DNA of 27,898 nt from positions 1 through 27,898 of IMG/VR virus record IMGVR_UViG_3300027365_000050; one strand, given 5' to 3'. Of the stretch, positions 1 to 26,814 are shown piece by piece. Under the pieces are notes generated by a model. It saw only the letters and a program-made list of their open reading frames with translations, made no database searches and was not told where the DNA came from. The stretch comes from a virus. Position 1 is the first letter of the stretch; each line of letters starts with the position of its first letter. A program made the position numbers and the translations under genes.

Positions 1-54
1 ATACCAACTATTTCTGCTCCACCAAAGTCTAGGTCAGCTTCTAATATATAATCA
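1..54. repeat. Terminal direct repeat, left copy
   Basis: Bases 1-54 are identical to the last 54 bases of the window. The repeat lies inside a gene whose frame stays open across the join, so it is best read as assembly overlap of a circular or circularly permuted genome rather than as a packaged terminal repeat or attachment site. Confidence 0.95.
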
Positions 55-107
55 CCACTAAGTGACATATTTAGAAATTCAGAGGTTGTAGTTATACTTG
101 TAGCCAT
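1..107 (-). CDS. Beta-helix (GLUG-type) fibre protein, N-terminal part (continues at right edge)
   Basis: This is the 5' end of the gene that resumes at the right end of the window. The start is ATG at 107-105, preceded by a GAGAGGGG Shine-Dalgarno site, and 35 full codons follow (beginning MATSITTTSEFLNMSL) before the left edge. Joined through the 54-base overlap, the frame continues without a stop into the minus-strand frame that ends at 26839, giving 370 residues. The N-terminal stretch carries the pattern GDYILEADLDFGG, typical of the opening of GLUG/beta-helix surface proteins. See the entry at 26839-27898 for function. Confidence 0.9.
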   Translation of the reverse strand, partial: MATSITTTSEFLNMSLSGDYILEADLDFGGAEIVG

Positions 108-124
108 TATTTACAACCCCTCTC

Positions 125-511
125 TTAAACTAAACTAATCTGTATATAAGTTGGTGTTGCTTTTAATGTAAATTCTCCATCATAAGAGAAATTAGCAGGA
201 GTATTAAAGTCTTCTCCAATAATAAATGTACTATCCCAAGTCCATTCTCCAATTCCATCATCATAAGCACCACTTTTAGATCTCCAACCTGCAACTTCTG
301 TACCTTCTGTTACTGGAAAGGGAATATCTTGTGCTAATTGTATTCTACCATCTGTAGTTCTATCCCAAGTATAAGTTGGTGTAAACCCTGTAGCTGAGTG
401 TGTAGGAACAACATCTGATACCTCAGTTCCACTACTGTTAACTAATACAACTCCTTGGAAATCATTATATATACTATCTCTAGCTCCATTAAGAGCTGTT
501 AAATCAATCAT
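125..511 (-). CDS. Small beta-rich head-fibre/decoration-like protein
   Basis: A 128-residue protein preceded by a strong AGGAGG site 17 bases before a clear ATG start; it lies just downstream of minor capsid protein 2 and 17 bases before the beta-helix fibre gene. By eye it resembles the small beta-sandwich fibre proteins of Bacillota phages. It has an early EVSD segment, a W-D-R-T-T-D-G segment near residue 50, an FPVTEGTEVAGW segment near residues 65-76, and an ending of the form F-x-x-D-G-E-F-T-L. In that family the middle portion is a jelly-roll-like domain often found in head or tail fibres. A structural role is inferred from position and composition (low charge, many T/S/W); the specific assignment is tentative. 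It could equally be a capsid decoration protein or a fibre base. Confidence 0.6.
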   Translation of the reverse strand: MIDLTALNGARDSIYNDFQGVVLVNSSGTEVSDVVPTHSATGFTPTYTWDRTTDGRIQLAQDIPFPVTEGTEVAGWRSKSGAYDDGIGEWTWDSTFIIGEDFNTPANFSYDGEFTLKATPTYIQISLV

Positions 512-545
512 ATTTAAACCTCCTAAAACATCTCATAAATTAGTC

Positions 546-1397
546 TTAATCTATTTCAAATAATCTATTACTTAATCTCTCATCTTCTTCAACATCATCA
601 GCTAACTCCTCTACATAAGGTACAAACCTGTGTAAGCAATTAGGATGAATTACTCCTTGTCTATTAGGTAATGCATTATCAATAGAAGGAAACCTATCAC
701 TTTCTCCACTTAAAGAATAAACTCTTCTTTCTAATGGTGCACATATAGGACAAGGATTACCATGAGAAGTTAATTGTACTAAATCTCTCCCCATACTTTC
801 TAACTGATTAAATACACCTTTATTTGTAGCTTCACCTATAACAGTTCTTGCTGACATCTCTGCATACCTTGTGAGCGACCAATCTCGCCCTGCTGAGTCA
901 ACAAAGGATGTAATACCCTGCTTAGATAACTTATCCGCTAATTCCTTCTGTGCCTGCTGTATAGTCTGTCCTGTAGTAAGTTTCTTCTTAGCAACTTCTA
1001 ATTGTATCTTTCTTAACTCATCTTTAACTTGTCTTCCTACAAAGTTGTGTGCTTTAACCATATTATTATAAAAGTTTTGTTGCATTATTCTAACAGCATC
1101 TTTGTGTACTTTAGCAAAATTACTTGCAATAGTATAATCAATATTATTATTATCAAATAGTTTTAGAATACCATTACGAGAACTTCTGTAATTAGTAGGG
1201 ATAGCTTCATTTGAGAACTTATAAACAACTTCATTTAACTCATTTATTTTATTATTAACATCTTTTAATAAGGCTCGCTGAAAGGCAGCCATATTTCCTG
1301 CTGTCCTTTTCTTTTTAATTGTCTTAATTAAACTATCTCTTGCATCAGTATAAATTTTTAATAATTGTCTTAAAGCTAAATCTCTGTCAAATGCCAC
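546..1397 (-). CDS. Phage minor capsid protein 2 (portal-associated, MuF-like position)
   Basis: 283 residues from the GTG at 1397. That start has an ideal AGGTGAT ribosome site; an in-frame TTG at 1412 would add five residues but has no good site. The N-terminal two thirds is helical. The C-terminal part has the signature of the minor capsid protein 2 family: SHGNPCPICAPLE (Cys 216 and 219), then RRVYSLSG, then HPNCLHRFVPY (His 251, Cys 254, His 256), a probable zinc site. Members sit in the head at or near the portal and are needed for assembly or DNA ejection. The gene normally follows the portal directly; here four fibre-like genes intervene upstream and three downstream before the scaffold. 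The family call is confident; the exact role in this phage is inferred. Confidence 0.85.
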   Translation of the reverse strand: MAFDRDLALRQLLKIYTDARDSLIKTIKKKRTAGNMAAFQRALLKDVNNKINELNEVVYKFSNEAIPTNYRSSRNGILKLFDNNNIDYTIASNFAKVHKDAVRIMQQNFYNNMVKAHNFVGRQVKDELRKIQLEVAKKKLTTGQTIQQAQKELADKLSKQGITSFVDSAGRDWSLTRYAEMSARTVIGEATNKGVFNQLESMGRDLVQLTSHGNPCPICAPLERRVYSLSGESDRFPSIDNALPNRQGVIHPNCLHRFVPYVEELADDVEEDERLSNRLFEID

Positions 1398-1414
1398 ATA
1401 ATCACCTACCAATC

Positions 1415-4390
1415 TTAGAATATTGCTTCTAAATAAATATACCTATCAACCTTACCATTAAGAATTAATTCTCTGTCAATAATACCTTCTAAATTAATTT
1501 CTCTATTAAGAGTTGCATTAACTATCAAATATCTCTCTATATCAGCATTTAATGTTATAGTACCAATACCTAAACTATCAAAATCAATTGCTTTTACTAA
1601 TAAACCTTTTAACTGAGTATTAACCTCACTTTTACTAAGTATTAATACTTTATTTAACTCCCTATACACTTCAATAAGGTTTTTATTAGTTATTATATCT
1701 TCTTTTGGTAATAGTAATTTAAATCCTGTACCTATTAAACTTGAAGGTTTATAAGTAACAATATTATTATCAACTTTGTTTAAGTCAATAAATATATTTG
1801 TTCTATTTATAAGAGCTATTAAATGCCCCTGTAAGGTTGCTGTGCTACTTGTTAATGCTATAACACTATCAATGTATTTAACTGCCTGTATGGCTGGTTT
1901 ATGACCTTCTACAAGGCTCTGAGAGGAACTTAATTGTATTAAGAGACTCTTACTAATACTAATAGTAGGTAAATACTTATTAATAGAAATATCTTTCTTA
2001 ACTAATGTAATAATATTATCAGTATTAGTAATAACATTAACTGAATACTTATTAACAGATATATCTTTCTTAACTAAATCTAAACTAACATTTCTACTAA
2101 CATTAATAGATAGATCAAACTTATTAACATTAACATCTTTTTTACTTATATTTAAATTAATGTTTTGACTTGTATTGATTGTAACTTGATAATTATTTAC
2201 ATTTATATTCTTAGGTGGTGCATTTACTTGGACAATTTTACTAATTCTAATAGTAGGTATATATTCATTAACTTGTGATGTCTTTGTTAGTATATCTATA
2301 TAAATATTATCAATAGAAATTATTAAAGGTGTATACTTTACAACTGAAACTAATTTTGAAAGAAGATTAATATTAATATTTACAGAAGAAACTATATCAA
2401 GTGTAAAAGTGTAACTATCTGTGTTAATAGTATTCTTTAATAGATTAACACTTACATTTTTTGGTTGTAAAGGCCACATCCTTGCTCCATATAAACCAGG
2501 GTCAGATGTAACCATTATAGCATCATTAGTAATAACAGTGTTAATTTGACTTTTTAGAGTACCATCAGGGTTTATTCCAAAAACATTATTGTCTAAACTT
2601 GAACTATAAACTGTACCGTCTGGGTTTACGTCTATATCTGTTATAGTATTGGTGTGTTGAGAAAATGTCCACTCTAAAACTCCATCACTATTTCTTATTT
2701 TATAAACATTTCCATTATAAGTACCTATATAAGAAAATTCATTATCAACAGCTGTTGCCCTAATAGATGATTGGGCATCTGTATTATTCCAAATTAAGTT
2801 TCCATTATTATCTCTTTTTTCTAAATTATCATCAACATATCCACCAGTATAAATATTTTTATTTAAATCTAATGCTATACTTTCTGTTCTTGTGGTATTA
2901 GTATTAAATTTATACTCTAAATTACCACTAGGACTAACTTTATGAACAAAGCTATCATTATCTGATACATAAATATATTTATCTTTATCAACAGCTACAG
3001 AGTAAGTTGCATTAGAACCAGACTCATAAGACCAGATAAGGTTCAAATTAGAGTCAAATTTCTTTAAAGTAGTTAAGTGAGATACATAAATGTTACTATC
3101 TAAATCAATTGCAATACTTCTTAATCCAGCAGTAAAATCTTCACTATCAAAGCTTACTGCATCTCCTGTTTCTAAATTAAGTGTTCTAATGTGATTATCA
3201 CTACAAATAGATGCTCCAATATTAGATTTTAAATTTATAGAAAAGTCTTCAATATCATAAGCATAACTAACATCCCAATAAACTTGGTTAAAATCTTCTC
3301 TTAATTTAACAAACTCATTAGATATTGAGCTTGCATAAAAAGGATAAGAAGAGGTTGTATTATGTGTTATTGAGTAAGACTGGCTGGATACTTGCTCTTT
3401 AATTAAACTAATTAAATTATCTAAAACAATTAATACAATTTCTGGTGAATAAGTGCTAGTAGTTACTTGTTTATTTGGTATTGAAATATTTACATTTGTT
3501 TCTGAAGGAGCTAAAAACCCTCCACTATAAGTACCAGGCTCTACTGCTACAGCTTGAACCCAATCTCTTAATTCACTATATAACCAACTATAGTTTGAAC
3601 CATCAGTTAATATCTTATGGACAATATCGTTACCTCCACCAGCATAAACAAAACCATCCTGGTCGACTCTAACTACTTCTTTTCTACTAGAAGTCCAGTA
3701 TGTCCAAATACTAGAACCAGAAGTATCAATTTTTTCTACATGTCCACTCCAACTAGAAGAATAAATATAAGGAGTATCACCTGTTGTTAAATCAGTACAA
3801 ACATCATTACCTGTTATATTATAATACCATATTTGATTACCATCAGAGTCTAATTTAAAAACAGTACCATTATCATTACCATAATAAATATTACCACTAT
3901 TATCTATTGTAATACCACGTATTCTATGAACTTTATCTGCAATCCATATATTATTTCCATCATTATCTATTTTATGGAGTTTACCATTCGAATCGCCACT
4001 ATAAATATTACCGTCTAAATCAATCTCTAATCCAAAAACACCTGTATTATGTCCTGTATATGTCCAAACTACATTACCACTAGAATCTATTTTTCTTACT
4101 TCATTATCATAAGTAGAAATATAAATTGTATCATCATTTCTTAAAACTAATGACATTATATAATGGTTTGCTACGAGCCCTCTTCTAACTAAATCTCCTG
4201 TAGCAGGGTCTATTTTAGATATTTCACCATTATCATACCCATAATACATATATTCATTTCCATAAGCACCATCTCTAATAGTATCTCCAAAGGGTCTTGT
4301 AAACCATAACTCATTACCAGCACTATCTATACCTGCAATTATTCCATCATAAGCACCAGCATATACATTATAATCGCCCAAATATATCAC
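1415..4390 (-). CDS. Double beta-propeller (PQQ/YVTN-like) fibre protein with C-terminal beta repeats
   Basis: 991 residues, with a GTG start at 4390 behind an AAAGGA site. Residues 1-290 and 390-640 are two beta-propeller blocks built from repeats of about 40 residues of the type D-x-D-G-N-I-Y...G-x-V-x-K-I-D-x-x-G-N-x-x-W, as in PQQ-like and BamB-like propellers. Many of the loops (DLDGNIY, DNSGNIY, DSDGNQI) look like calcium-binding DxDGN loops. Each propeller ends in a similar linker (PGTYSGGFLAPSETNV at 286-300; PGLYGARMWPLQPKNV at 631-646), so the module was duplicated. After residue 645 come about eight short repeats, roughly 25 residues each, of alternating hydrophobic/polar strands (for example INLNISKKDVNVNKF, VSLDLVKKDISVNKY, IITLVKKDISINKY). 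No signal peptide is visible. Placed between portal and minor capsid protein, it is probably a virion fibre or receptor-binding protein. No enzyme activity is implied. Confidence 0.8.
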   Translation of the reverse strand: MIYLGDYNVYAGAYDGIIAGIDSAGNELWFTRPFGDTIRDGAYGNEYMYYGYDNGEISKIDPATGDLVRRGLVANHYIMSLVLRNDDTIYISTYDNEVRKIDSSGNVVWTYTGHNTGVFGLEIDLDGNIYSGDSNGKLHKIDNDGNNIWIADKVHRIRGITIDNSGNIYYGNDNGTVFKLDSDGNQIWYYNITGNDVCTDLTTGDTPYIYSSSWSGHVEKIDTSGSSIWTYWTSSRKEVVRVDQDGFVYAGGGNDIVHKILTDGSNYSWLYSELRDWVQAVAVEPGTYSGGFLAPSETNVNISIPNKQVTTSTYSPEIVLIVLDNLISLIKEQVSSQSYSITHNTTSSYPFYASSISNEFVKLREDFNQVYWDVSYAYDIEDFSINLKSNIGASICSDNHIRTLNLETGDAVSFDSEDFTAGLRSIAIDLDSNIYVSHLTTLKKFDSNLNLIWSYESGSNATYSVAVDKDKYIYVSDNDSFVHKVSPSGNLEYKFNTNTTRTESIALDLNKNIYTGGYVDDNLEKRDNNGNLIWNNTDAQSSIRATAVDNEFSYIGTYNGNVYKIRNSDGVLEWTFSQHTNTITDIDVNPDGTVYSSSLDNNVFGINPDGTLKSQINTVITNDAIMVTSDPGLYGARMWPLQPKNVSVNLLKNTINTDSYTFTLDIVSSVNININLLSKLVSVVKYTPLIISIDNIYIDILTKTSQVNEYIPTIRISKIVQVNAPPKNINVNNYQVTINTSQNINLNISKKDVNVNKFDLSINVSRNVSLDLVKKDISVNKYSVNVITNTDNIITLVKKDISINKYLPTISISKSLLIQLSSSQSLVEGHKPAIQAVKYIDSVIALTSSTATLQGHLIALINRTNIFIDLNKVDNNIVTYKPSSLIGTGFKLLLPKEDIITNKNLIEVYRELNKVLILSKSEVNTQLKGLLVKAIDFDSLGIGTITLNADIERYLIVNATLNREINLEGIIDRELILNGKVDRYIYLEAIF

Positions 4391-4416
4391 CCACTTTCCT
4401 TTATAAGTTAACTAAA

Positions 4417-4707
4417 TTATTGTTTTTCTAATTTTGCTATTCTATCTTCTAATTCTTTTATTCTCTGCTCTTCTTTAGTTAAAGGTATATCTTCATATTC
4501 ATACCATATTTCTTTAGTTTGTGGGTTAATATAAGCTACAGCTTTCTTTCCCTCTATATTCTCTCTCTTAGGGACACTTTCAACTTCAATACCTTGTTTT
4601 ATTCTTTCTAAAGGTAAACCATTCTTTTCATCATAAGGTTGGTTGTGTATCATAGTAATCTTAGCTCTAGTTTCTGTTTCTTTCTCAAAGAATACAACTA
4701 CAGGCAT
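4417..4707 (-). CDS. Small fibre-associated protein with C-terminal coiled coil
   Basis: 96 residues. The ATG at 4707 follows a GGGGGAG site two bases after the preceding 33-codon gene. The C-terminal third (YINPQTKEIWYEYEDIPL, then TKEEQRIKELEDRIAKLEKQ) is a short extended segment followed by a charged coiled coil. That ending is common in small proteins encoded beside tail-fibre genes of Bacillota phages, where it is often followed by an XkdX-type peptide. Its place next to the propeller fibre fits a fibre chaperone or trimeric connector. No enzymatic motif is visible. Confidence 0.6.
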   Translation of the reverse strand: MPVVVFFEKETETRAKITMIHNQPYDEKNGLPLERIKQGIEVESVPKRENIEGKKAVAYINPQTKEIWYEYEDIPLTKEEQRIKELEDRIAKLEKQ

Positions 4708-4709
4708 TG

Positions 4710-4811
4710 TTACTCCCCCTTTGAATTTTTCTTCTGCTCTATTAATTTATCAATAAAATCTTTAGTTTCTGTTTTCTTTTTTGGAATACCAATCTTCATA
4801 TCTTTACTCAT
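4710..4811 (-). CDS. 33-residue basic microprotein (fibre block)
   Basis: The ATG at 4811 begins one base after the stop of the upstream gene, and the TAA at 4710 sits two bases before the next start, so the frame fills the gap between two real genes exactly. The product (MSKDMKIGIPKKKTETKDF at the start, ending KNSKGE) is lysine-rich with no recognised domain. The tight packing suggests translational coupling. Its own ribosome site (GTGGTGA) is moderate. It may be a small fibre accessory peptide; function unknown. Confidence 0.55.
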   Translation of the reverse strand: MSKDMKIGIPKKKTETKDFIDKLIEQKKNSKGE

Positions 4812-4812
4812 A

Positions 4813-5241
4813 TTAAGTCACCACGTCATATAGACCATTTGCATCTACTGTTAAAGTATATTCTCCATTAACACTTTCTTGTACTCCACCAAAGTTAATA
4901 TGCTCCATTAGGTAACTATCTGTATCGTCAGTACCTACTGTATAAATTACAGCATGACTAGCAGATATTGAAGTACTTGCTCCAAATGAAATATTATCAG
5001 CATCTACATTAATTGTCCCTGTAGCTTGAGTTACTACAACATTACTTAAAGCTTGTCTTGTATAATCAGCGTCTACAACTTCATTAGCAACTATATCTGA
5101 TACTGTATTATCTGTTTCACTAAAAGTATGATTAGCATCAAGTAACATACATTCTAAATTACCTGCACCTTCAATATCTGGTATTAAAGAATTTAATGCA
5201 TTATTAAAAAAGTTTCCATATAAATTTACTGTTACTGCCAT
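4813..5241 (-). CDS. Small structural protein, head-fibre/decoration type
   Basis: 142 residues, ATG at 5241 with an AAGGAG site. The layout matches a widespread family of phage structural proteins: an opening of the form MAVTVNLYGNFFNNALN, a segment L-E-C-M-L-L-D-A-N-H-T-F, then D-I-V-A-N-E-V-V-D-A-D-Y-T and A-V-I-Y-T-V-G-T-D-D-T, and an ending of the form F-G-G...S-V-N-G-E-Y-T-L-T-V-D-A-N-G. Family members are usually encoded near head or fibre genes and are thought to be virion proteins. It is the first gene after the portal. Role inferred from family appearance and position. Confidence 0.65.
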   Translation of the reverse strand: MAVTVNLYGNFFNNALNSLIPDIEGAGNLECMLLDANHTFSETDNTVSDIVANEVVDADYTRQALSNVVVTQATGTINVDADNISFGASTSISASHAVIYTVGTDDTDSYLMEHINFGGVQESVNGEYTLTVDANGLYDVVT

Positions 5242-5267: not shown

Positions 5268-6686
5268 TTATTGTTCTGTTCCTTCTTCTTCCTCTTCTCC
5301 AGTTTCTCCAAATACTGTAGGAGCTGGTTCTGGAGGGGCTGTTCTCATAGCATCTTGCTTCATTTTATCTAATTCAGACTGTAATTCTTCTCCTGTTTTA
5401 TTATCAAGAGATTTAATAGCACTTTCTTGTGATATAGTAGCTTTATCTGCTGTTCTCTTTCTCATAATTTCTGCTTGTTCAGCAGGGTCATCTGGTAATC
5501 CATCATTCCATTCAATCTTTAAATCAGTTAATTCTGGTGTATCTATTCCATTCTTTCTTTCTAATTCATTAGCTGTCTTAATCATTTTAGGTAATACATC
5601 ATCAAAAGGTAATCTTTTACGTGAAGTTCTTGCAACACTTCTCATAAGTAACCTTCTCATAGCACTACCACTAGGAACACTACCATTTTCAAATAAACTA
5701 AAAGCCGCCGCATTAGTATCTGTTACAATATAAAGCATTTTCATTATCTTATCAATATATTTAAAGTTAGCTTCTAATCTAGCATCCCAAGTTAAATATC
5801 CTGGAGGTTCTTCATCAGGCCCTACTTCAAAGTATCTACCACCAACATCTACATTCTCTTCGCCTGTTGTAGGGTCATAAGTACTGTTCTTTTGAGGCCC
5901 ATACATATTAGGGTCACTATGCCTATCAAGTATCTTAGCTATCTGTGCAAGACGTATATCAAGCTCTGCGAATAGTGTATCTGCCTCTGTGTAATCATCA
6001 ATCCCATATAAACTATCATCTATCTGTAGATTAGGTACATGGAATATTAATGGTTTATTAACACCTGTTAACTCTTCGTCTCGTTCAATTATTTCTAATA
6101 TCTCATTATTCTTTAGTATATAAGTTCTATAATCAATTCTACCTGCTTGATGAACTTCTACATAGAGTTTCTTTCTATCCTTATCAATCTTCTCTGTAAA
6201 AGCAATTACGTGTGCATTAATCTTATTAATATTACCTCTATCTAATACAGGAAACCAATATTGAGCTGGAACAACTTGGAACTTAGCTTGTCCATCCTCC
6301 ATTACAACCTTATAAATTGCATCTCCTCTATAACTTTGAGATAATGCTGCTTTATAATTTTTAGTCTTTGTATTATTCATCTCAATAAAATTATCTAACC
6401 ACTTTTGTGCTTCTTCATCTTCACCTGCTGAATACATTGGTTCTTCACCAAATAATAAATCTGAATATAACTTACTTACTGCTGATGGAAAATTAACTGA
6501 TATTTGTAATAAATTAGAACTATAATCTAAATCAATTCTCTCCATCATATTTTCTAAATAAACTTCGCTATGTTTTCCTAAGAATAATTTTTTATTGTTG
6601 TTATATCTATCTAATCTTTCTTTATGACCTTTTGGAGGCCAATTCTTACCTGTATGTAAAAAATTTATTTTGTCTGGATTTATCAT
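5268..6686 (-). CDS. Phage portal protein, SPP1 gp6-like
   Basis: 472 residues; ATG at 6686 follows a GGAGGTG site, 11 bases after the terminase stop. The portal forms the dodecameric ring at the capsid vertex through which DNA is packaged and ejected and to which connectors bind. The length, the position directly after the large terminase and the sequence pattern fit the SPP1 gp6-like portal family: an N-terminal wing, a clip/stem region around NINKINAHVIAFTEKIDKDR, then a central GIDDYTEADTLFAELDIRLA segment, and a GSVPSGSAMRRLLMRS segment near residue 335. The acidic tail (EEEEEGTEQ at the very C-terminus) is typical of a flexible portal tail. Confidence 0.9.
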   Translation of the reverse strand: MINPDKINFLHTGKNWPPKGHKERLDRYNNNKKLFLGKHSEVYLENMMERIDLDYSSNLLQISVNFPSAVSKLYSDLLFGEEPMYSAGEDEEAQKWLDNFIEMNNTKTKNYKAALSQSYRGDAIYKVVMEDGQAKFQVVPAQYWFPVLDRGNINKINAHVIAFTEKIDKDRKKLYVEVHQAGRIDYRTYILKNNEILEIIERDEELTGVNKPLIFHVPNLQIDDSLYGIDDYTEADTLFAELDIRLAQIAKILDRHSDPNMYGPQKNSTYDPTTGEENVDVGGRYFEVGPDEEPPGYLTWDARLEANFKYIDKIMKMLYIVTDTNAAAFSLFENGSVPSGSAMRRLLMRSVARTSRKRLPFDDVLPKMIKTANELERKNGIDTPELTDLKIEWNDGLPDDPAEQAEIMRKRTADKATISQESAIKSLDNKTGEELQSELDKMKQDAMRTAPPEPAPTVFGETGEEEEEGTEQ

Positions 6687-6697: not shown

Positions 6698-8083
6698 CTA
6701 AAAACCTTTTGGTTTACCTACAACTCTACTAGCTCTCCTATTTAAAGCTAACTCTGTTAATGCCCATACTAGAGCATCTAACCTATCTGGAGAGTCACTT
6801 CCTTGCTCCCAAGTTGTAAGTTGATCTTCTAATTTCTTTAATTTACCTACATGAAAAACTTTACCTTGTTCATATATTGAAGCAATAGGTTCTGCTCTTA
6901 CACGTTTACCTCTAGATGCTCTAACCTTCTTATATGATACATTTCTACTCTCACTTCTTAAAACACTTTCTACCATATCCCCACCTTGATTAACTTCTGC
7001 AATAATAGTATCTGCATTATACTTTTCATAAGCCGCTATAGCTATCTTAGCCCAACCATTAGGAGATGCTTTAGTTGATCTATCCTCTAACACATAAATG
7101 TAATTATCTTCTCCTATACCCGCTACTATGATACCTGTCTCATCACTTTTTGCTTTATTAGTTGTTGCAGGGTCAATAGCAACTACAATTTTCTTTAAGT
7201 CTGGATAGTCTTTAGAATACTTAAACATATCATAATTCCATAATGCACTTTCATCAGTCTTTCTAGGTTCTTGCTGATATAAAGATAAAAACATTCTATC
7301 TAATAAGGTGTTTCTAATATCTTCTAATTCAGATACAGGGTATCTTTCTTCCCATAATGCTTCTCCTTCTTGTCTTCCTAAAATGTCTTCTTCTTTTGCA
7401 ATTGCTGGAAAATTAACTATATCCCAATTATTACCTTCTTGTTTTAATAACCTACCTGCTAAATCGTCTTCATGCCATCTAGTCATTACCAATACAATAG
7501 CTCCATCTGGAGTTAATCTTGTACGTAAAACTGACTGATACCATTTCCAAACTTTCTCTCTATATGTCTTACTAGAAGCTTCTTCCCAGTTCTTAACAGG
7601 GTCATCTATTATTGCTACGTTAGCACCTCTACCAGTAATAGGGCCTCCTACTCCTGCTGCTGTTAAACCACCATCATAACCTTCTATATTCCAATTTTTA
7701 ATAGCTGAACTATCATTTGCTAAAGAAACATCAAATAGGTCTGCATTATCTCTTAAAGTATTTCTAGCAATTCTTGAAAAATCATAAGCTAAATCAGCTG
7801 CATAAGAACTCAATATAATTTCTTTATTTGGATTTTTACCTAAATACCAAGCAGGGAATTTCTTACTAACTACTTCCGATTTTCCGTGTCTTGGAGGTAA
7901 GAAAACCATTAATCTTTTAAGTTCTCCATTTTCTACTGCTTCTAATTTTTCACATATTAACTCTAAATGCTTTGCTCTCATCCATTTATAATCACTATCA
8001 TACTCAAGAAAATGTGAAAGGTGTCTTCTAGATAACTCTCTTTTAGCTTCCCTCGATTTTTCGATTAACTTCTTCAAGTGCAA
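6698..8083 (-). CDS. terL: Terminase large subunit (ATPase-nuclease)
   Basis: 461 residues. It drives DNA packaging and cuts concatemers. Walker A is FLPPRHGKS (residues 61-69, K68); Walker B is VAIIDDP (156-162). A TRWHEDDLAGRL segment follows at 201-212. The RNase-H-like nuclease domain begins with VVAIDPATTNK (Asp304), and SPDRLDALVWAL (431-442) supplies further acidic residues. The start overlaps the small-subunit gene by 41 bases. TTG at 8083 and TTG at 8077 are both possible behind GAGGAG (spacers of 4 and 10 bases); no ATG is near. All motifs look intact, so the enzyme should be active. Confidence 0.95.
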   Translation of the reverse strand: MHLKKLIEKSREAKRELSRRHLSHFLEYDSDYKWMRAKHLELICEKLEAVENGELKRLMVFLPPRHGKSEVVSKKFPAWYLGKNPNKEIILSSYAADLAYDFSRIARNTLRDNADLFDVSLANDSSAIKNWNIEGYDGGLTAAGVGGPITGRGANVAIIDDPVKNWEEASSKTYREKVWKWYQSVLRTRLTPDGAIVLVMTRWHEDDLAGRLLKQEGNNWDIVNFPAIAKEEDILGRQEGEALWEERYPVSELEDIRNTLLDRMFLSLYQQEPRKTDESALWNYDMFKYSKDYPDLKKIVVAIDPATTNKAKSDETGIIVAGIGEDNYIYVLEDRSTKASPNGWAKIAIAAYEKYNADTIIAEVNQGGDMVESVLRSESRNVSYKKVRASRGKRVRAEPIASIYEQGKVFHVGKLKKLEDQLTTWEQGSDSPDRLDALVWALTELALNRRASRVVGKPKGF

Positions 8084-8468
8084 TCAACTCCTCATCGGAA
8101 AGTCCCGATAAGTCATACTCTACTTCAATTGGTTCTCCGTTATTTCCTGTAACTTCTTTTCTATCCTTATATTTATTCTTCATTTCAAAATAAAGTTTTA
8201 TAGCTCTTACATTACCATCTTTTGCTCTTTTTATTAAAGATTTCCATATATTAGCTTCTTGACTGTCTGTGTAACTATCAATTTTTCTATCAACTGCTTT
8301 TTTAAATTCTTCATCATCTAACCAATCATATATAGTAGACCTTGCTACTCCACATTTCTCTGCGATAGCCTTTATAGAGGTAATGGAAGGGTCAACAAAC
8401 ATAGGTAATGCAGTCATTTGCTTTTTTGTTAGGTTAGCATATGTAGTTTTCTGTTTTTTACTAGTCAA
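8043..8468 (-). CDS. terS: Terminase small subunit
   Basis: 141 residues from the TTG at 8468, which has a strong GGAAGGAG site eight bases upstream. A longer frame starting at GTG 8507 would overlap the zinc-ribbon gene and lacks a good site. The N-terminus carries a helix-turn-helix (about residues 28-52: SITSIKAIAEKCGVARSTI then YDWL), the DNA-recognition domain of small terminases. A helical oligomerisation region (60-105) and an acidic C-terminal tail ending SGLSDEELIALEEVNRKIEG follow. It lies just upstream of, and overlaps, the large subunit. It should recognise the packaging site, probably within or near this region. Confidence 0.9.
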   Translation of the reverse strand: MTSKKQKTTYANLTKKQMTALPMFVDPSITSIKAIAEKCGVARSTIYDWLDDEEFKKAVDRKIDSYTDSQEANIWKSLIKRAKDGNVRAIKLYFEMKNKYKDRKEVTGNNGEPIEVEYDLSGLSDEELIALEEVNRKIEGS

Positions 8469-8485
8469 TGTAAACACTCCTTCCA

Positions 8486-8665
8486 CTAGGTGAATATATC
8501 TTTCCACGCTGTTTTTATTGCTTTCTTTAACTCTTCTATAGCTAATCTTAATTCATAAACTTGTATTTCATATGTATCTTTAAAAGTTTCCCTACATTCG
8601 GGACAATATCTATTTATCAACTCATCACCATCATACTCTTTATAACAAAGATTACAGATACTCAT
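8486..8665 (-). CDS. Zinc-ribbon microprotein, 59 residues
   Basis: The ATG at 8665 follows an AAGGGGGAT ribosome site; the TAG at 8486 lies 17 bases before the small-terminase start. The product begins MSICNLCYKEYDGDEL and contains two Cys pairs, C4-x2-C7 and C21-x2-C24 (YCPEC), a classical zinc-ribbon knuckle, followed by an alpha-helical acidic/basic segment (YEIQVYELRLAIEELKKAIK). Small zinc-ribbon proteins at the head of terminase operons are known, but their role is not established. DNA binding at the packaging site or a regulatory role is a guess. The gap-filling position and intact Cys pairs make this a convincing gene despite its size. Confidence 0.8.
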   Translation of the reverse strand: MSICNLCYKEYDGDELINRYCPECRETFKDTYEIQVYELRLAIEELKKAIKTAWKDIFT

Positions 8666-8692
8666 AAGATTTATCCCCCTTATAATTTAACT

Positions 8693-8779
8693 CTAATTTA
8701 AAATATTAAATATAATTAAATATCTATTAAAATTAGTTCTATCAATTGTGTTATCAATAGGTCTTTTACTTATGGGCAT
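8693..8779 (-). CDS. 28-residue ORF or leader peptide upstream of the zinc-ribbon gene
   Basis: The ATG at 8779 is preceded by a full GGAGGTG site (minus strand of 8786-8792). The product begins MPISKRPIDNTIDRTNF and ends in a short hydrophobic run. The ribosome site lies in the internal loop of a hairpin (8781-8819), so its translation may be structure-controlled. It may be a leader peptide, the start of a decayed gene, or chance. Confidence 0.4.
   Translation of the reverse strand: MPISKRPIDNTIDRTNFNRYLIIFNILN
8717..8745 (-). promoter_or_regulatory. Weak sigma-A-like promoter candidate before zinc ribbon/terminase
   Basis: On the minus strand a TTGATA box (8745-8740) is separated by 17 bases from TATTTA (8722-8717). 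The -35 is 5/6 to consensus and the -10 is weak. In such AT-rich DNA this could be chance. Confidence 0.25.
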
Positions 8780-8780
8780 T

Positions 8781-8819
8781 CCTAACACCTCCTGTAAGGC
8801 TCTCATAGCCTACACTAGG
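8781..8819 (-). promoter_or_regulatory. Hairpin carrying a Shine-Dalgarno site
   Basis: On the minus strand, TGTAGGCT pairs with AGCCTTACA (one bulged T) around a five-base loop. An outer CCTA/TAGG stem then encloses the GGAGGTG site used by the 28-codon ORF. The GC-rich stem stands out from its AT-rich surroundings. Confidence 0.5.
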
Positions 8820-12775: not shown

Positions 12776-13147
12776 TCAAACCCTTTCATCCCACCTTGCT
12801 TTATAACCTCTTACATCAAGATGAATAAAAGTATTATATTTTCCTATACCATCAAAACCTAATCTCTCTGCTATTTCTTCTAAATCATCAATATCAACAG
12901 GAATAGTAGATAGCAGTATGTCCACAGCCTTACCTTGTTTATGAAGACTATTCTTACTTCCTCCAACTTGTCTATTTCTTTCCTCACATCTATAAGCTGA
13001 GGTTATAATTAAAGGGACATTTAAAAAATCCCTTAATTGTTGTAGGTTTTCTAGTAATTGCTCATCTATTTGAACATGTTGATGGTCTGGATGAGTACAC
13101 TCAAACTCTTTTAGATTAAAGTCTTTACTAATTTGAATATTATTCAT
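12776..13147 (-). CDS. Endolysin, M15-type peptidase (L-Ala-D-Glu or D-Ala-D-Ala family)
   Basis: 123 residues, the catalytic domain alone, with no cell-wall-binding domain. The family pattern is intact: TSAYRCEERNRQVGGSKNS (49-67), SLHKQGKAVDI (67-77: zinc ligands His69 and Asp76), and FIHLDVRG (107-114: His109 zinc ligand, Asp111). Peptidases of this type cleave peptidoglycan cross-links or stem peptides and serve as endolysins in many Bacillota phages. It lies directly after a coiled-coil/TM protein (13486-13157), forming a lysis pair. The ATG start has an AGGAGGAT site. Confidence 0.9.
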   Translation of the reverse strand: MNNIQISKDFNLKEFECTHPDHQHVQIDEQLLENLQQLRDFLNVPLIITSAYRCEERNRQVGGSKNSLHKQGKAVDILLSTIPVDIDDLEEIAERLGFDGIGKYNTFIHLDVRGYKARWDERV

Positions 13148-13156
13148 AATATCCTC

Positions 13157-13486
13157 CTAGAATAAACTGTCAAATACACCTAATTCATATAAGTAAAGGA
13201 TAAATGTTATTCCTGTAAATATCCAACTACCATACCTTCTTAAATAATCTTTTACTTGTTTATTAGTCTTCTGTTTAGTTTCTATATCACATACATTTTC
13301 TTTTACCTGCTTTAAACCATCTTTCATTTCTTCTACTTCAATTTCTGCTTCTTCTAAGTCTTCTCTCAAACCATTATATTTTACAATTATTCTATTAGTT
13401 TCAGAGAGGGAAGCTTCTAACTCATCCATTCTATCCATTAAATTACCAATTACTTCTTTATTAGAGAGAAAGTTCTCATCTGCCAA
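13157..13486 (-). CDS. Coiled-coil protein with C-terminal membrane anchor (XhlA-like, lysis)
   Basis: 109 residues from TTG 13486 behind GAGGTG. Residues 15-80 form a long charged coiled coil (NLMDRMDELEASLSETNRII, then further heptads). Residues 86-104 (GSWIFTGITFILYLYELGV) are one membrane-spanning helix at the C-terminus. This is the layout of XhlA/haemolysin-type proteins, which pair with holins or act themselves at the membrane in the lysis cassettes of Bacillota phages. The gene sits directly before the endolysin. No separate classical two-TM holin was found, so it may be the holin itself. Confidence 0.75.
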   Translation of the reverse strand: MADENFLSNKEVIGNLMDRMDELEASLSETNRIIVKYNGLREDLEEAEIEVEEMKDGLKQVKENVCDIETKQKTNKQVKDYLRRYGSWIFTGITFILYLYELGVFDSLF

Positions 13487-13528: not shown

Positions 13529-13663
13529 TTATTCTTTATTTTCTTCTTGCATAATTCTAGTGACTTTATTTAGTAAATTCTCTACAGCAAAACTGCTTGC
13601 TTGTGTCTCTTGTGCAAATCTACTGAACAACTTATTTAGTTTTTCCATTGTTTCCTTTTCCAT
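13529..13663 (-). CDS. 44-residue protein overlapping the 3' end of the tail-hub gene
   Basis: The ATG at 13663 follows an excellent AGGGGGAAT site located inside the end of the tail-hub gene; the TAA is at 13529. The two genes overlap by 32 bases in different frames. The product begins MEKETMEKLNKLFSRFAQE and is amphipathic-helical. Short proteins often occur here between tail fibre and lysis genes (XkdX-like position), but the sequence does not show a recognisable XkdX motif. The strong ribosome site is the main evidence. Confidence 0.6.
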   Translation of the reverse strand: MEKETMEKLNKLFSRFAQETQASSFAVENLLNKVTRIMQEENKE

Positions 13664-16600
13664 TTTTATTCCCCCTACTTTTTTGAGCTTCTAATTTCTC
13701 TTTATCTAAATCAAATTCAGCATTTCTTTGATAAGCCTGCTCTAAGTCTCCTATATCAGTATATTTTCTTTCTGCACCATCCCAAGCTTTTTCAGCGTCC
13801 TCATCTTTTCTAGTACCAATAACTAGAATATTATACTCTCCATCTTTATCTGTTTCTATTAGTAATTTATTATCTTCTATATTTCCATATCCACTACCAA
13901 AATGGTTTTGAGGATTTACAAATACTTGTGAGTCTTTATTTAAATATTTAAAATAGGATGGTAATTTTATTTCTTTTTGATTATTTTCTACATTAACAGA
14001 ATACCTATAAATATTATCTCCTGCTGTATTAGTCTCAACTGTACTATGGTATAAGTAGTATTCTTGCTTATCTTTATTTGGATGATGAATTTTAAAGTTC
14101 TTAGTTGAACCTGTTAATGTGCCTGTAATATCAACATTTCCATAAAACTGAGCATTACCACTTAACTCAAAATAAGCAGATGAGCTATAATTAGCATCAG
14201 ATTGAGGTCTAGCTGTTAGTTTTACATTAGTATTACCCATTTCATCTCTTAAATAAAGTCTACCACCAATAGCATAGCCTTCACCTGAACTATAATTACC
14301 TTGAAAATAAGTACCTCCATCAAGAAATACAGTATTATACTCATTAGCATTAAACATTTCAAATGTACCACCCTGTAAAGTAGTGTCAACCCCCATTATA
14401 ACTCTTTCTCCAGTTCCAGACCAATCATATACGCCTATAGTACCTACATCTAAATCATTTGGAGATTGAGTAGTTATTTGTACTACATCATATCCACCAT
14501 TTATAATTGATAAACCCTTTTGGTCAAATATCATTCCATTTCCACTAGGACTTAAAGTTTCTCCAGCTTTTAAACTACCTTCCAAATCAACTTCACCTGG
14601 GAATGTAGCTTCTGTATCTGATAATGTAAATTGAGATGAATTTATATATAGGTTATTTCCATCAAAATCAACATAATTAGTTGAATTACCTAATCTACCT
14701 GTAGCAGCAGTTAGTTCACCACCAAATGTACCTTTTGCAGCAGATAACTCACCACTAAATACAGCATTACCGTTTTTATCCATACTAAAATCATCTGTAC
14801 TAATACTTAATCCTGTATTATCTAAGTCAAAGAAGTTATTTGTCCCAGATTTCAAAGTTATTTGGTCTGAGTCAATATATACTTTATTTTCTGAGCTATC
14901 AATTGAGAATATAGGACTACTAACTGTTGTACCTGCTGTGGTATCACCAAATATTCTAAATCTATCAGCTCTTACTGCAAATTCAGAGGTTTCTCCTTCT
15001 AAATTTAAACCAAATCCAGTAACTACTTCTGTTCCATTAGATGTTGTCTGTATCTTAACTGAGTACTCATCTGATAATTGCTGTATTTGAGATGTATTAG
15101 TAGTACCATCTGGGAATACTTCATTAACTGTAGTTGTTATATCTGAACCATTAGTATCAATCCAACTTCCATTAGAGGTAGAACGACTTTCATTTAAACT
15201 AATAGTACTTGATAAACCAGTAGTTAATTTACTTTCGTCTATTACTCCATCTGGAATATCTGGTTCTTGAATACCAAATATTGTTACATTAACAGGGTCA
15301 GATTTAGTTTGTTCAAATAAAGCTAGGTTATGAATTGGATTATAAACACTATCATAAGCTCCAACTCTAATATCAAATGATTTTCCTGTTTCTGCTTCAA
15401 AATAGTAAACACCATCACCTAATTCATTAACTGATATTTGTATTTTTTGTTCATTTCCAATAGGGTCTCCTGTATCAGGGTCTACCTCTTGAAAGAATAA
15501 TCTATACCCTAAAATTTCTTTCTCTTCTGAGGTTGTAGAACCAGAACTAACTAATTGACTAGTCTCAGAAAATACATTAGGAAGAGTTATTTTAATTGAA
15601 GAAAGTAAAGGTTTAACATCTTGACTAGTAAAGTCTAATTTCTGAATACCAGGATGTTGTATATTTGCTTGCTCTGGTATACTATAATTATTACTTTTAT
15701 CTTTACCTGCAACATAAAAGTTATAACTTTCTTCCCTTGGAGCTGTATTAGTATCAAAACCTTCAAACTTGTAATTTAAATTCTTACCTTTGGTTATAAT
15801 ACTATTTGAATTTATTATAGTTCCAAAATTAGTGTCATTTAATCTAACAACATATTCATCAAAATGGTTTTCAAATGTTGGTTGCCAACTTAACTTAATA
15901 TAGTCAGCTCCCCAATATATATTATGCCAAGGAACTGTATTAGGGTCTCTATCAATATTCCCTGCTACAACATTATATTCAGCAGAAGGTTCTGATACAC
16001 TATCTTGAGAACCTACATGTACTAACTTTAAATAATATGTTTGTCCCATAATCATTTCATCAGCAAAATTAAATTGAGTAGCTTTAGCTTGTTTTGTAAA
16101 GTCATAAGTACCTGCATCACTAATATTAATATTTGGAGTCTCAGATACAAATACTTTTGAATATTTCCAACTAATACTATCTGTTATTGGACTATCAAAA
16201 CTCATTCTTGCACCATTTGCTGTTGGTCTAATTTCTATATTAGCAGGTGATGAAATTAAATTATAATCTCTAACATCACTACTAGAAATAGGTTCAGCTG
16301 CACCTGGTCTAGTTTCATTTCTTAACCATTTAGATTGCCCACCTCTAACTTTACCTGTTGCCTGTATTTCTGTTCTTAATGTACTAGTATCATCAGATAT
16401 ACTTATTCTATGTCTTACACTATCTACTGCATAAAAATCTACTGTAGAAGACATTTCTGGGTAATCTAATGTTATAGTGTCAAATAAATCAATCTGTGGA
16501 AATATAGGCATATCAATATTAGTCTTTGAAATTAACTCAGATAGGTCATTAATAGCATAATTTGAAAGTCTATCAGCTTCTATATGCTTATCAATCTCAT

Positions 16601-17516
16601 CTAGAAACTTTAATTCCATTGGTCTTCTACCATATTTATCAATTGAGGTCTGATCTTTATTAACAACCTCTTGTATATTCCCGTTACTATCTTGATAAAC
16701 TACTTTACAAACATTCCTTATATCATTATCATTAATAGATAAGTCTTGTGTATATATATCATCAGTAGCATCAAATGCATAATCAACAGCAGATTTAGTA
16801 CGAGGTGGTTTTATTATTTGTAATTGCCATTCATCAGCAGTTTCATTGTATCTATAACCCATAAACCAACCACTAACAGTTATAAAGTTTTGTACAGCAT
16901 CCCAGACACTCTTATACTCTATCTTCTGCTTCTTAACTCCTAAAGGTAAGTTATTAATATCATATACTGTAGGAGGGTCTTCCATATTGTCATTTATAAT
17001 ATTTCTAATAACATTTATAGCTGTATCTGAACCAGAAGAAGCAACTTCATACTCTCCTTCTATATAAGAGTACTGCATCCTTTTAGCGTAATCTCTACCA
17101 TCTACTTCAACTACTCCAGCACTAGGGTTAGCATCTGCACTATCAATGTATCCTGCAAATATATCATAAAAGGTAGGACTTGTTTCTCCTTGACTCTGTA
17201 TTCCTACCCTTACAATAACTTGTCTCATAGGAAATAGAAGTGGTTCATATTCATCTCTTCCATCATCATCTACATCAAAATTATTCCAACTAGAATTCTT
17301 GTCTTTAGGTGCAAAGTTACTATCTTCATCATTAACTACTGTGAAACTAACTGTCCTTACAACACTATCTGCACCACTATCACCTGTACCAAGAGCAGAT
17401 ACATCCCCTAATTCTACATCTATATCTGATACATGAGTTGTTATATCCTCCCATGTACTACCATCTGGTCTAGAGACCAAAATCTGAGGTATAACTTCCC
17501 TATTTGTATTTATCAT
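13632..17516 (-). CDS. Tail hub/baseplate protein with Fn3-like and fibre domains
   Basis: 1294 residues, ATG at 17516 with a GGAGGTAT site. The N-terminal ~400 residues look like a tail-tip hub (gp27-like fold of phage tail endopeptidase-type proteins). Features include early SFTVVNDEDSNFAPKDKNS, then FYDIFAGYIDS, VEVDGRDYAKRM, and SGWFMGYRYNETADEWQLQI. From about 415 to 760 come Fn3-like beta-sandwich segments (ANIEIRPTANGARMSFDSP; YIKLSWQPTFENHFDEYVVR; IKITLPNVFSETS). The C-terminal part (about 770-1200) is Gly/Ser/Thr-rich, with strand patterns such as FSMDKNGNAVFSGELSAAKG, typical of a trimeric side fibre. The extreme C-terminus is charged (EKLEAQKSRGNKNGKGNNGK). It ends the tail module, after the tape measure and a small tail protein. 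No peptidase motif is evident. Confidence 0.85.
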   Translation of the reverse strand: MINTNREVIPQILVSRPDGSTWEDITTHVSDIDVELGDVSALGTGDSGADSVVRTVSFTVVNDEDSNFAPKDKNSSWNNFDVDDDGRDEYEPLLFPMRQVIVRVGIQSQGETSPTFYDIFAGYIDSADANPSAGVVEVDGRDYAKRMQYSYIEGEYEVASSGSDTAINVIRNIINDNMEDPPTVYDINNLPLGVKKQKIEYKSVWDAVQNFITVSGWFMGYRYNETADEWQLQIIKPPRTKSAVDYAFDATDDIYTQDLSINDNDIRNVCKVVYQDSNGNIQEVVNKDQTSIDKYGRRPMELKFLDEIDKHIEADRLSNYAINDLSELISKTNIDMPIFPQIDLFDTITLDYPEMSSTVDFYAVDSVRHRISISDDTSTLRTEIQATGKVRGGQSKWLRNETRPGAAEPISSSDVRDYNLISSPANIEIRPTANGARMSFDSPITDSISWKYSKVFVSETPNINISDAGTYDFTKQAKATQFNFADEMIMGQTYYLKLVHVGSQDSVSEPSAEYNVVAGNIDRDPNTVPWHNIYWGADYIKLSWQPTFENHFDEYVVRLNDTNFGTIINSNSIITKGKNLNYKFEGFDTNTAPREESYNFYVAGKDKSNNYSIPEQANIQHPGIQKLDFTSQDVKPLLSSIKITLPNVFSETSQLVSSGSTTSEEKEILGYRLFFQEVDPDTGDPIGNEQKIQISVNELGDGVYYFEAETGKSFDIRVGAYDSVYNPIHNLALFEQTKSDPVNVTIFGIQEPDIPDGVIDESKLTTGLSSTISLNESRSTSNGSWIDTNGSDITTTVNEVFPDGTTNTSQIQQLSDEYSVKIQTTSNGTEVVTGFGLNLEGETSEFAVRADRFRIFGDTTAGTTVSSPIFSIDSSENKVYIDSDQITLKSGTNNFFDLDNTGLSISTDDFSMDKNGNAVFSGELSAAKGTFGGELTAATGRLGNSTNYVDFDGNNLYINSSQFTLSDTEATFPGEVDLEGSLKAGETLSPSGNGMIFDQKGLSIINGGYDVVQITTQSPNDLDVGTIGVYDWSGTGERVIMGVDTTLQGGTFEMFNANEYNTVFLDGGTYFQGNYSSGEGYAIGGRLYLRDEMGNTNVKLTARPQSDANYSSSAYFELSGNAQFYGNVDITGTLTGSTKNFKIHHPNKDKQEYYLYHSTVETNTAGDNIYRYSVNVENNQKEIKLPSYFKYLNKDSQVFVNPQNHFGSGYGNIEDNKLLIETDKDGEYNILVIGTRKDEDAEKAWDGAERKYTDIGDLEQAYQRNAEFDLDKEKLEAQKSRGNKNGKGNNGKTK

Positions 17517-24814: not shown

Positions 24815-25696
24815 TTACACAATAGCTTCGGTGTGAACATAAATTCCATTAACTTTATTGTCTGGAGTAAAGATATCGTGATATACTCTAGACTGCATTA
24901 ACCAACCATCTTTTCTTTGGTTAGTGTTAGGGTCAAAGATTTTTAGTTCTTGTTGCTTAACAATAGGTAGTCCTGCACTTTGATGTACTAACATAAAGTT
25001 AATAGCATTTCCAGTGGCAGAGAAACCATAAGTAGAAGCACCATTATTAAGAGTAATAGCATCATTAAATCTGCTTTGAGGTACTTTGATTACAGGAATA
25101 TTATCATAAGTATCTACTTTTCTATCACCAATTTGTGCCATCTGTCTATCAAACAAGTCAGAATTTCTCATGTTACTAATTGTTTGAGGACTAGCAAATA
25201 GATATAATCCTTCTCTTGGTACTTCATTATTATCAATAGATACTAGAGCAGTTTCAATTGCTTCTACTGTATCAGAAACTGTTAAATCAGCATTTACAGT
25301 TTGAGCAGTTGGAGCTTTAGCTGCTAGTTGAGCATATCTATAAGCATCAAATTCTGGAGCAACTTTTGTTCTAGCAAATTGACTAGAAGCAAATGTAAAT
25401 ACAGAGTCTAAAGCTTCTTCATTGTCCTGTCTATCAATAGTAAATTCTACACCTCTATCTTGTCCTAGAGAATGAGTTTCCCAACTAAAGTTTACGCTTC
25501 CTTCTGGGTAACCTGTAGCTCTATCATAATCTCCTAATCCATCTACAACAATCTTAGGCAGTAAAATTTCTCCTGCACCTTGTGCTTGTCTTACTAATTC
25601 GTCTGGAATACTTAATACACTAGAAGTTAATTCCCTCTTATACTGTTCATCCAATAAAGTTGTGTACTTTTGTGCTAATTCAATTGTGTTAGCCAT
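24815..25696 (-). CDS. Major capsid protein (HK97 fold)
   Basis: 293 residues; ATG at 25696. Its position after the scaffold and the pattern LAQKYTTLLDEQYKRELTSS, then RATGYPEGSVNFSWETHSLG, then QDRGVEFTIDRQDNEEAL, then LYLFASPQTISNMRNSDLFD fit HK97-fold major capsid proteins of Bacillota phages with a separate scaffold. No protease gene is present, so capsid maturation probably does not involve proteolytic cleavage. Confidence 0.92.
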   Translation of the reverse strand: MANTIELAQKYTTLLDEQYKRELTSSVLSIPDELVRQAQGAGEILLPKIVVDGLGDYDRATGYPEGSVNFSWETHSLGQDRGVEFTIDRQDNEEALDSVFTFASSQFARTKVAPEFDAYRYAQLAAKAPTAQTVNADLTVSDTVEAIETALVSIDNNEVPREGLYLFASPQTISNMRNSDLFDRQMAQIGDRKVDTYDNIPVIKVPQSRFNDAITLNNGASTYGFSATGNAINFMLVHQSAGLPIVKQQELKIFDPNTNQRKDGWLMQSRVYHDIFTPDNKVNGIYVHTEAIV

Positions 25697-25740: not shown

Positions 25741-26319
25741 TTACATTCTTCCAAATTTGTCTATTTGTTTCTTAGCCCATTCCCTAGTATCAGGTTCATC
25801 ATTACTTTCACCAGGATTTGTTTGCTTACCAACATCTTTCTTTCCTTCTTGTTCAAATAAATAATCATCAGTCTCTTTTAGACTCTCTAACTGCTCATCT
25901 AAACCTTCAATACCATCCTCACCAATAGAAACTTCTTCCATACTCATTAATGCTTTAACTGCTTTAGGGTTTCTTGCCTTCTCTTTTAACAGTCTTTTAT
26001 CAATCTCTGACTCAAGTCTAGTCTGTTCCAACTTCTTCTGCATCTCTTCTTTTTCTTTCTCATTAGCATTTTGTAATTCTTCAATTTTAGTTTTTAACTC
26101 TTCTGATGTAGTACTATCCTCTTTTAATTGATTGAATTGACTGTCTCTTTCTTTTAGCTGAGTTTCAAGAGCTTCTTTTTCTTCTTTAAGTTTCTCTCTT
26201 TCTTTATTAAAGGAACTTTTGGTTACATGATTTTCTTCCTTAACTAGTATTACATCATCACCCATTTTACCTTTAACTTGTTCAGCAAGCTCTTCACCTA
26301 AAACTTCTACTAAATCCAT
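25741..26319 (-). CDS. Scaffold protein (phage minor structural GP20 family)
   Basis: 192 residues, strongly charged and mostly coiled coil (about residues 30-112: NKEREKLKEEKEALETQLKE...). The C-terminal part is acidic and ends in a basic helix (REWAKKQIDKFGRM), which in scaffolds binds the capsid. It matches the GP20-type scaffold in layout and lies just before the major capsid. ATG at 26319 with a strong AAAGGAGTG site. Confidence 0.88.
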   Translation of the reverse strand: MDLVEVLGEELAEQVKGKMGDDVILVKEENHVTKSSFNKEREKLKEEKEALETQLKERDSQFNQLKEDSTTSEELKTKIEELQNANEKEKEEMQKKLEQTRLESEIDKRLLKEKARNPKAVKALMSMEEVSIGEDGIEGLDEQLESLKETDDYLFEQEGKKDVGKQTNPGESNDEPDTREWAKKQIDKFGRM

Positions 26320-26451: not shown

Positions 26452-26814
26452 CTAAGTATTTACTGAGTCCTTTACAACAAATTCTCCTCTACTAATTGTA
26501 GATACAAAAGCTTCATTTAAATCTGTATCTTCCAACTTTAATTCATGGTCATATTTCCTTGGTTCTAAATTTAGAGTATCATTTTCATTTAACATAAAGA
26601 ATATATTATAAATAGAGCTATCTTCCTTATCAACTTCTATATTAATTTCACCTGGATAACTTTTCTGTAAAATTACATCATCTTCATTAATGTTATAAAC
26701 TACATACCAATGAATTTCATCTATTTTACTTAAATCATTGATACCTGATGTTTTAAAAACAATTCTTTTGGAGTTACCTTGATAAACTTCAAAATCTTCA
26801 CTAGTAGGTATCAT
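26452..26814 (-). CDS. Small beta-sandwich fibre protein (BppU N-terminal-like)
   Basis: 120 residues. The pattern 'F-E-V-Y-Q-G-N-S-K-R-I-V-F-K', 'I-H-W-Y-V-V-Y-N' and 'P-R-K-Y-D-H-E-L-K-L-E-D...S-T-I-S-R-G-E-F-V-V-K-D-S-V' is that of the short immunoglobulin-like domain found in BppU-type baseplate proteins and as small stand-alone proteins in fibre operons. In most phages it belongs to the tail tip; here it sits between the beta-helix fibre and the scaffold. ATG at 26814 with a GAGAGGTGAT site. Confidence 0.6.
   Translation of the reverse strand: MIPTSEDFEVYQGNSKRIVFKTSGINDLSKIDEIHWYVVYNINEDDVILQKSYPGEINIEVDKEDSSIYNIFFMLNENDTLNLEPRKYDHELKLEDTDLNEAFVSTISRGEFVVKDSVNT

Follow-up and report, generated by a model that had tools for sequence, protein, structure and literature searches.

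A fibre-type gene block split around the minor head gene of a small siphovirus: possible head- or neck-anchored adsorption cassettes

An interrupted head operon

The IMG/VR record IMGVR_UViG_3300027365_000050, analyzed here over its full length of 27,898 bp (the window), carries in its head operon a seven-gene block that looks to be of fibre or adhesin type. The first-pass annotation had noted that the head operon is interrupted twice by seven open reading frames (ORFs), and all of them are confirmed at the sizes given there. On the minus strand the order is portal–[142, 33, 96, 991]–minor head–[128, 370, 120]–scaffold–capsid, where the numbers are protein lengths in amino acids and give the gene names used below (g142, g33 and so on). 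What we propose for function and virion position is inferred from gene order, homology and fold. The genes are listed here; L229 is a second contig, of 8,467 bp.

5268..6686, minus strand: portal, SPP1 gp6-like (PF05133, 9e-26; phrog_533, 2.5e-45)
4813..5241, minus strand: g142, proposed fibre anchor/adaptor (phrog_644, 3e-9)
4710..4811, minus strand: g33, small ORF, no confident family match, weakest of the seven
4417..4707, minus strand: g96, fibre-associated accessory protein (phrog_3834, 8.9e-22)
1415..4390, minus strand: g991, large adhesin/fibre (PQQ_2, 5.4e-19; phrog_8401, 2.7e-67)
546..1412, minus strand: minor head protein, between the half-blocks (PF06152, 3.7e-33; phrog_581, 8.5e-41)
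125..511, minus strand: g128, first of the second half-block (70% homologue at L229:2803-3186)
1..107, minus strand: g370, N-terminal part (the gene crosses the circular joint)
26839..27898, minus strand: g370, remainder (phrog_30905, 1.1e-6; 69% homologue at L229:3204-4313)
26452..26814, minus strand: g120, last of the second half-block (55% homologue at L229:4330-4692)
25741..26319, minus strand: capsid scaffold (PF06810, 1.2e-33)
24815..25696, minus strand: major capsid protein (phrog_422, 6.1e-82)

The two ends of the record share a 54-bp direct repeat, and once one copy is removed (leaving 27,844 bp) the 370-aa frame runs unbroken over the end joint. The repeat indicates that the contig is closed and that the 370-aa gene is whole; a 94-base pattern spanning the joint also has an exact match in L229. 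By eye, plausible ribosome-binding sequences could be read for six of the seven ORFs, that of the 33-aa gene being weak. The codon usage of the block is that of the rest of the window (relative synonymous codon usage, RSCU, r = 0.99), and an origin of the block as a foreign insert was rejected for this reason.

The rarity of such an interruption can be judged within the portal lineage. Alignment of the portal gave 65 viral and 26 genome loci, which together with 4 reference phage loci make 95, several of them near-duplicates, and these were labelled by iterated profiles. The minor head gene follows the portal in 82 of the 95; the 13 loci that were dropped have the scaffold directly after the portal (9), end at a contig edge (3) or are unlabelled (1). 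Across the 82, the gap between portal and minor head gene has a median of -1 bp and a maximum of 1,042 bp, and the biggest ORF that any relative has within this gap is of 205 aa; the gap in the window is 3,855 bp. Between the minor head gene and the scaffold, the 51 loci with a recognised scaffold have a median of 114 and a maximum of 1,212 bp, compared with 2,070 bp in the window. A fibre/adhesin-type block in the head operon is thus unusual for this portal lineage, as was first supposed. BLAST of the seven proteins against the ORFs of the 95 loci (at least 40 aa, forward strand) gave no match at E 1e-3; the flanks covered extend no further than 10 kb from the portal, short of distant tail tips. 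Scans of viral contigs by single protein found no relatives with the portal and none with the 991-aa protein; the capsid found one near-identical contig, L008, and the terminase large subunit (TerL) found 80 loci, none of which matched at least three window proteins at E 1e-4. Searches of open-access literature, which took in few subscription papers and preprints, found no description of a head-operon block of this make-up.

The block proteins and their families

g142 gives a full-length profile match to phrog_644 (residues 1-137 of 142). Its AlphaFold2 (AF2) model, built on an alignment with 32 relatives, has a pLDDT of 85 and a pTM of 0.82. A second-look structural alignment placed at the top the KP1 baseplate cup (9f4a, Z 13.7), followed by the Bxb1 tail tip (9d93_Ra, Z 10.6 over 100 residues) and the GP4 fibre I/fibre-tail adaptor (8jou_a, Z 9.2, root-mean-square deviation 3.1, 117 aligned). 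The Bas63 connector (9mt4_K, Z 7.4) and the Sf14 neck (9c39_K, Z 6.6), so named in the titles of their PDB entries, also match, at scores below 8 that by the warning of the tool may reflect common arrangement alone. Lower rows (lipocalins, PRMTs) were taken as noise. Foldseek with the same model found no PDB match under E 0.001 (the best was Bxb1, 0.013), and searching PDB sequences with individual members of the g142 family, or with the adaptor of contig L117 described below, gave no credible match. By profile, the family is weakly matched to the 'tail wing arm' gp31 of Bxb1 (E 0.012), and g142 scores 15.8 bits against GP4 fibre I (PF23140), under the Pfam cut-off of 27. The modelled fold is that of fibre-anchoring parts, which are found at both tail ends; a fold shared with GP4 fibre I is no proof of common function.

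The g142 family is found in several genomic settings. In 13 of 37 viral loci its gene lies directly 3' of the capsid gene, as judged by flanking capsid homology. These 13 loci (L098, L099, L102, L103, L105, L107, L109, L112-L115, L124, L126) are uncultured viral contigs that have the capsid gene of MiniFlayer, a Streptomyces satellite phage, and after it a phrog_644 gene; portal and scaffold lie upstream in those contigs that extend far enough. They appear to form a wider MiniFlayer-like group. Pseudomonas 8P and Microcystis MJing1 have the family in the structural module, downstream of a portal or DUF5309 gene. L133 has at 9866-20298 a tandem pair of g142-family genes; large repeat genes of 1,024 and 1,393 aa are in the vicinity, together with small companions of 117-163 aa. 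phrog_644 carries no functional annotation and runs to hundreds of phage records, 360 being matched by MiniFlayer gp6; fold and context tie it to fibre anchoring, which gives it a testable role.

The largest protein of the block, g991, is predicted to carry a beta-propeller in its N-terminal ~640 aa, with blades of 39-41 aa (period 39 aa), and matches PF13360 (PQQ/BamB-type propeller) with 69.2 bits, over the cut-off of 27.6; its C-terminal part is an array of 24-aa repeats. In the 440-kb record of Salicola phage SCTP-2 (H96), 22 places match the g991 propeller. g96 matches phrog_3834 over its full length (residues 6-95 of 96). The earlier term 'coiled-coil accessory' survives, by eye, for the end of this 96-aa protein and for nothing else in it. 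Genes of the g96 family usually follow a tail-fibre gene, ahead of lysis, and in 8 of 35 viral loci a g991-like propeller lies at most 3 kb upstream.

The second half-block is less easily assigned to families. For g128 we found no confident family match and no phage records, and profile comparison detected no relation to the g142 family. g370 had been called a GLUG adhesin; its match to PF07581 (Glug) reaches 18.5 bits, below the Pfam cut-off of 20.5 (the L229 homologue reaches 17.7), and the name was not upheld. Its C-terminal repeats have a period of 21 aa, and the strand-rich C-terminal repeats of g991 and g370 are alike in style, with a weak BLAST match (best E 0.026 in a two-sequence test). 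The term 'BppU-like' for the 120-aa protein is also unsupported: g120 has no confident family, no Pfam match at E up to 1 (its L229 homologue none at E up to 0.1), no phage records, and no profile match to MiniFlayer gp9 (hhalign probability 0.1%, with weak power from profiles of 1-3 sequences). Its single-sequence AF2 model, meant for a fold comparison with the N-terminal domain of BppU, is of low confidence (pLDDT 44). A pairing of g120 with an L133 protein that adjoins a giant gene (E 0.009, 23% over 61 residues) was too weak and was not used.

Where the block proteins may sit on the virion

Upstream of the block, on the minus strand, lie the terminases and then the portal. After the capsid gene follow connectors, two major-tail-type genes, a chaperone, the tape measure and a 118-aa gene, and the late genes end with a tail-tip gene, a holin-like gene and an M15 lysin, so that the set of an SPP1-like-head siphovirus (portal, minor head, scaffold, capsid, connectors, tape measure) is present.

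8043..8507, minus strand: terminase small subunit (phrog_24579, 1.6e-27)
6698..8083, minus strand: terminase large subunit (phrog_38, 1.7e-113)
13632..17516, minus strand: tail-tip protein, 1294 aa (PF09327 Phage_Tail_Tip, 4.5e-9)
12776..13486, minus strand: holin-like gene and M15 endolysin (lysin phrog_894, 9.6e-34)

The holin-like label comes from position and from a C-terminal hydrophobic segment read by eye. The tail-tip protein is the virion's other candidate host-binding protein, and the interval between its gene and the holin-like gene is empty of fibre genes.

The contig L229 carries homologues of the second half-block. Its order is TerL, portal, the g128, g370 and g120 homologues, scaffold, capsid (37% to that of the window), connector, a 138-aa gene, holin-like gene (72%), M15 lysin (77%) and g134 (78%). 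The last of these is a 134-aa gene 3' of the lysin (window 12365-12769) that is without a family match. L229 does not belong to the window phage: its TerL is of another family, and its portal, though of the same PHROG, cannot be aligned by BLAST with that of the window. Tail genes are absent from its connector-to-lysis interval. Over part of g370 the two contigs share 95% DNA identity, so that the cassette and the lysis genes look as if they were exchanged by recombination. The ends of L229 form a 127-bp exact inverted repeat, which may be an assembly effect, and the contig is a candidate for a satellite or mini-phage, or for an assembly product.

What the analysis shows is the order of the genes and their families, a fold of g142 like that of fibre anchors, and further head operons in which blocks of this kind recur. 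With moderate confidence, we propose that the block consists of two exchangeable adsorption cassettes that make fibres anchored at the head or neck. The seven proteins would be made with the head proteins and would become part of the virion on the capsid or at the head–tail neck. In this scheme g142 would serve for docking, g96, perhaps with g33, would be an accessory of assembly, and g991 would form a long fibre whose beta-propeller contacts a sugar or protein on the host surface. g128, g370 and g120 would form a second appendage, and both appendages would hold the host reversibly at first, with the step to injection then left to the tail-tip protein. The weakest steps of this proposal are the site on the particle and the binding to the host.

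A head or neck role is the best explanation for the half-block that stands between portal and scaffold in L229, where the usual tail interval is without tail genes, and it is preferred because a tail part would more easily travel with the tail. The g142–g991 half is less certain, its fold matches and relatives spanning neck and tail tip. For this half, three of the modelled fold matches (GP4, Bas63, Sf14) come from necks, connectors or short tails, and by analogy the placement next to the capsid gene in MiniFlayer and its 13 relatives, the phiCbK gene that precedes a head-filament candidate, and the long-tailed L117, L121 and L240, with a block between capsid and connector, point in the same direction. 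The interval after the tail-tip gene, without a fibre gene, is a further support.

The main rival, which we regard as unlikely yet worth serious weight, is that these are ordinary tail-tip or baseplate fibres whose genes moved into the head operon, the proteins being assembled at the tail tip beside the 1294-aa protein; the empty interval, the usual place for fibre genes, fits this as well. Several results weigh against a head or neck site. The two top fold matches of g142, the KP1 baseplate cup and the Bxb1 tail tip, are tail-end parts. In Gordonia, Rhodococcus and Mycobacterium phages the g142 family follows minor tail genes or stands beside the lysin. A tape-measure search run on 18 g142-family records matched 8, and the g142-family gene is downstream of the tape measure in five of them (L108, L119, L123, L127, L130) and upstream in three (L117, L121, L133). 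For the g96 family, tail-side markers (a baseplate gene before, or XkdX, holin or lysin after) were found in 23 of the 35 viral loci; the head-side position, upstream of the tape measure, was found in 1 (L240), while 9 are without marker and 2 have the propeller alone. The phiCbK head-filament candidate went undetected in virions, L229 may be incomplete, and PMC10966104 places the neck-fibre genes of A-1(L) far from the other structural genes, which means that gene position does not fix virion position. The word 'relocated' in the first-pass annotation is therefore fair at the level of gene order: related phages do have the g142 and g96 families in tail-fibre positions, which for these two families is the finding that the annotation had named as refuting. 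Against a tail-tip site stand L229, which holds the 128/370/120 trio in the head position, the MiniFlayer-like elements, in which the g142 family adjoins the capsid gene, and the neck anchors that are also among the g142 matches.

A second alternative is that these are moron genes or code for factors that change surfaces, being expressed late and acting outside the virion, for example as secreted or cell-surface adhesins. PQQ/BamB-type propellers are common outside phages, and the window phage is known from its genes alone. We consider this quite improbable, given the tight packing with head genes and the matching codon usage, the fibre-anchor fold seen in g142 and the recurrent association with structural operons; a signal sequence is not evident in the translations, which were read by eye with no program run. 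Least probable is that the half-blocks are unrelated in role, g128-g370-g120 decorating the head and g142-g96-g991 forming a tail or neck fibre, as could be argued from L229 carrying the second half-block only and from one large repeat protein in each of two halves that flank the minor head gene, since the C-terminal repeats of g991 and g370 are alike in style.

An extension of the head/neck proposal, which we put forward as tentative and rather doubtful, is that such adsorption cassettes are common to the long-tailed window phage and the tail-gene-less L229, possibly its satellite or mini-phage. L229 would then keep its own head grip and would borrow a tail or dispense with one, by analogy to MiniFlayer on the neck of its helper. 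If the cassettes do sit on the head or neck, they would add a mobile means for phages and satellite-like elements to exchange attachment devices without involving the tail. Host range, the hitch-hiking of satellites and the nature of head filaments like those of phiCbK would all be touched by this.

The remainder of the window adds some observations. Two neighbouring genes at 21763-22824 each match phrog_1407, a family of major tail proteins (1.5e-12 and 0.0012). Recognisable replication, integration and repressor genes are absent from the closed record; in the region 8486-12325 there are, apart from small ORFs, only an HNH gene (8965-9459), a gene resembling those of sigma factors (10657-11289) and one for a GIY-YIG endonuclease (11408-12193). 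Replication of this 27.8-kb siphovirus could depend on the host or on a helper.

Parallels in other viruses

The nearest parallel is MiniFlayer, whose gp6-gp9 are called a 'putative adsorption module' in PMC10690885. There gp6, of the g142 family, directly follows the capsid gene; behind it are a small ORF, a giant protein with LamG, and a 'tail fiber' of 111 aa. MiniFlayer and the window have in common a g142-family protein (38% identity), a small ORF, a giant adhesin and a position in the head operon. They differ in that the MiniFlayer giant has LamG and not a propeller and that its module follows the capsid gene and not the portal; gp9 and g120 are not detectably related, and the MiniFlayer stretch examined has no annotated tape-measure or tail-tube gene, whereas the window has tail genes.

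In phiCbK (L091:9001-17891), the g142-family gene phiCbK_243 directly precedes a 2,799-aa protein, gp76, which is proposed as the head filament in PMC3556154, and the phrog_644-type gene may be the anchor of this candidate. What it shares with the window is a g142-family gene that leads into a giant repeat/lectin protein within the head-side part of the structural genes. Unlike the window, the giant is glycine-rich and ConA-like, the phage is a jumbo prolate one, and the filament role is a putative one.

For the fold of g142, the parallels are the fibre I/fibre-tail adaptor of the podophage GP4 (8jou; PF23140, PF23148) and Bxb1 gp31 (9d93), which is similar in fold and is a tail-tip part in a mycobacteriophage. 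For g96, it is the Bacillota cassette fibre-phrog_3834-XkdX-holin (phiCD27, D6E, Osiris, pCD1602_4), which shares the family with the window; in pCD1602_4 and several viral loci a propeller adjoins the g96-family gene, as in the window. This cassette, however, is in the tail-lysis position, whereas the window block is in the head operon and is without XkdX.

Fibre blocks inside the head operon are seen in L117 and L240, both long-tailed as judged by their tape-measure genes. L117 has the order scaffold (so labelled from position alone), capsid, 398 aa, g142 family, 906 aa with CBM96, a 97-aa adaptor, connector and tape measure; the 97-aa protein (Gp77-like) matches the GP4 fibre-tail adaptor PF23148 at 1.5e-7, over the cut-off. 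L240 has portal, protease, capsid, 74 aa, 55 aa, 129 aa (weakly Gp80-like, E 0.0082), a phrog_3834 protein, a weak PQQ propeller, 1,085 aa, connector, head closure and tail. L121 is another long-tailed parallel, with its block between capsid and connector.

Published precedents are the glycan-binding capsid domains of Douge, the capsid turrets of HFTV1 and the capsid fibres of 7-7-1. The 'unusual adsorption system' that was first suggested for the window is plausible and not unique. Head-side fibre cassettes were already known as authors' candidates in MiniFlayer and phiCbK; new are a block that the minor head gene divides in two, its propeller form within this lineage of portals and the half-block shared with L229.

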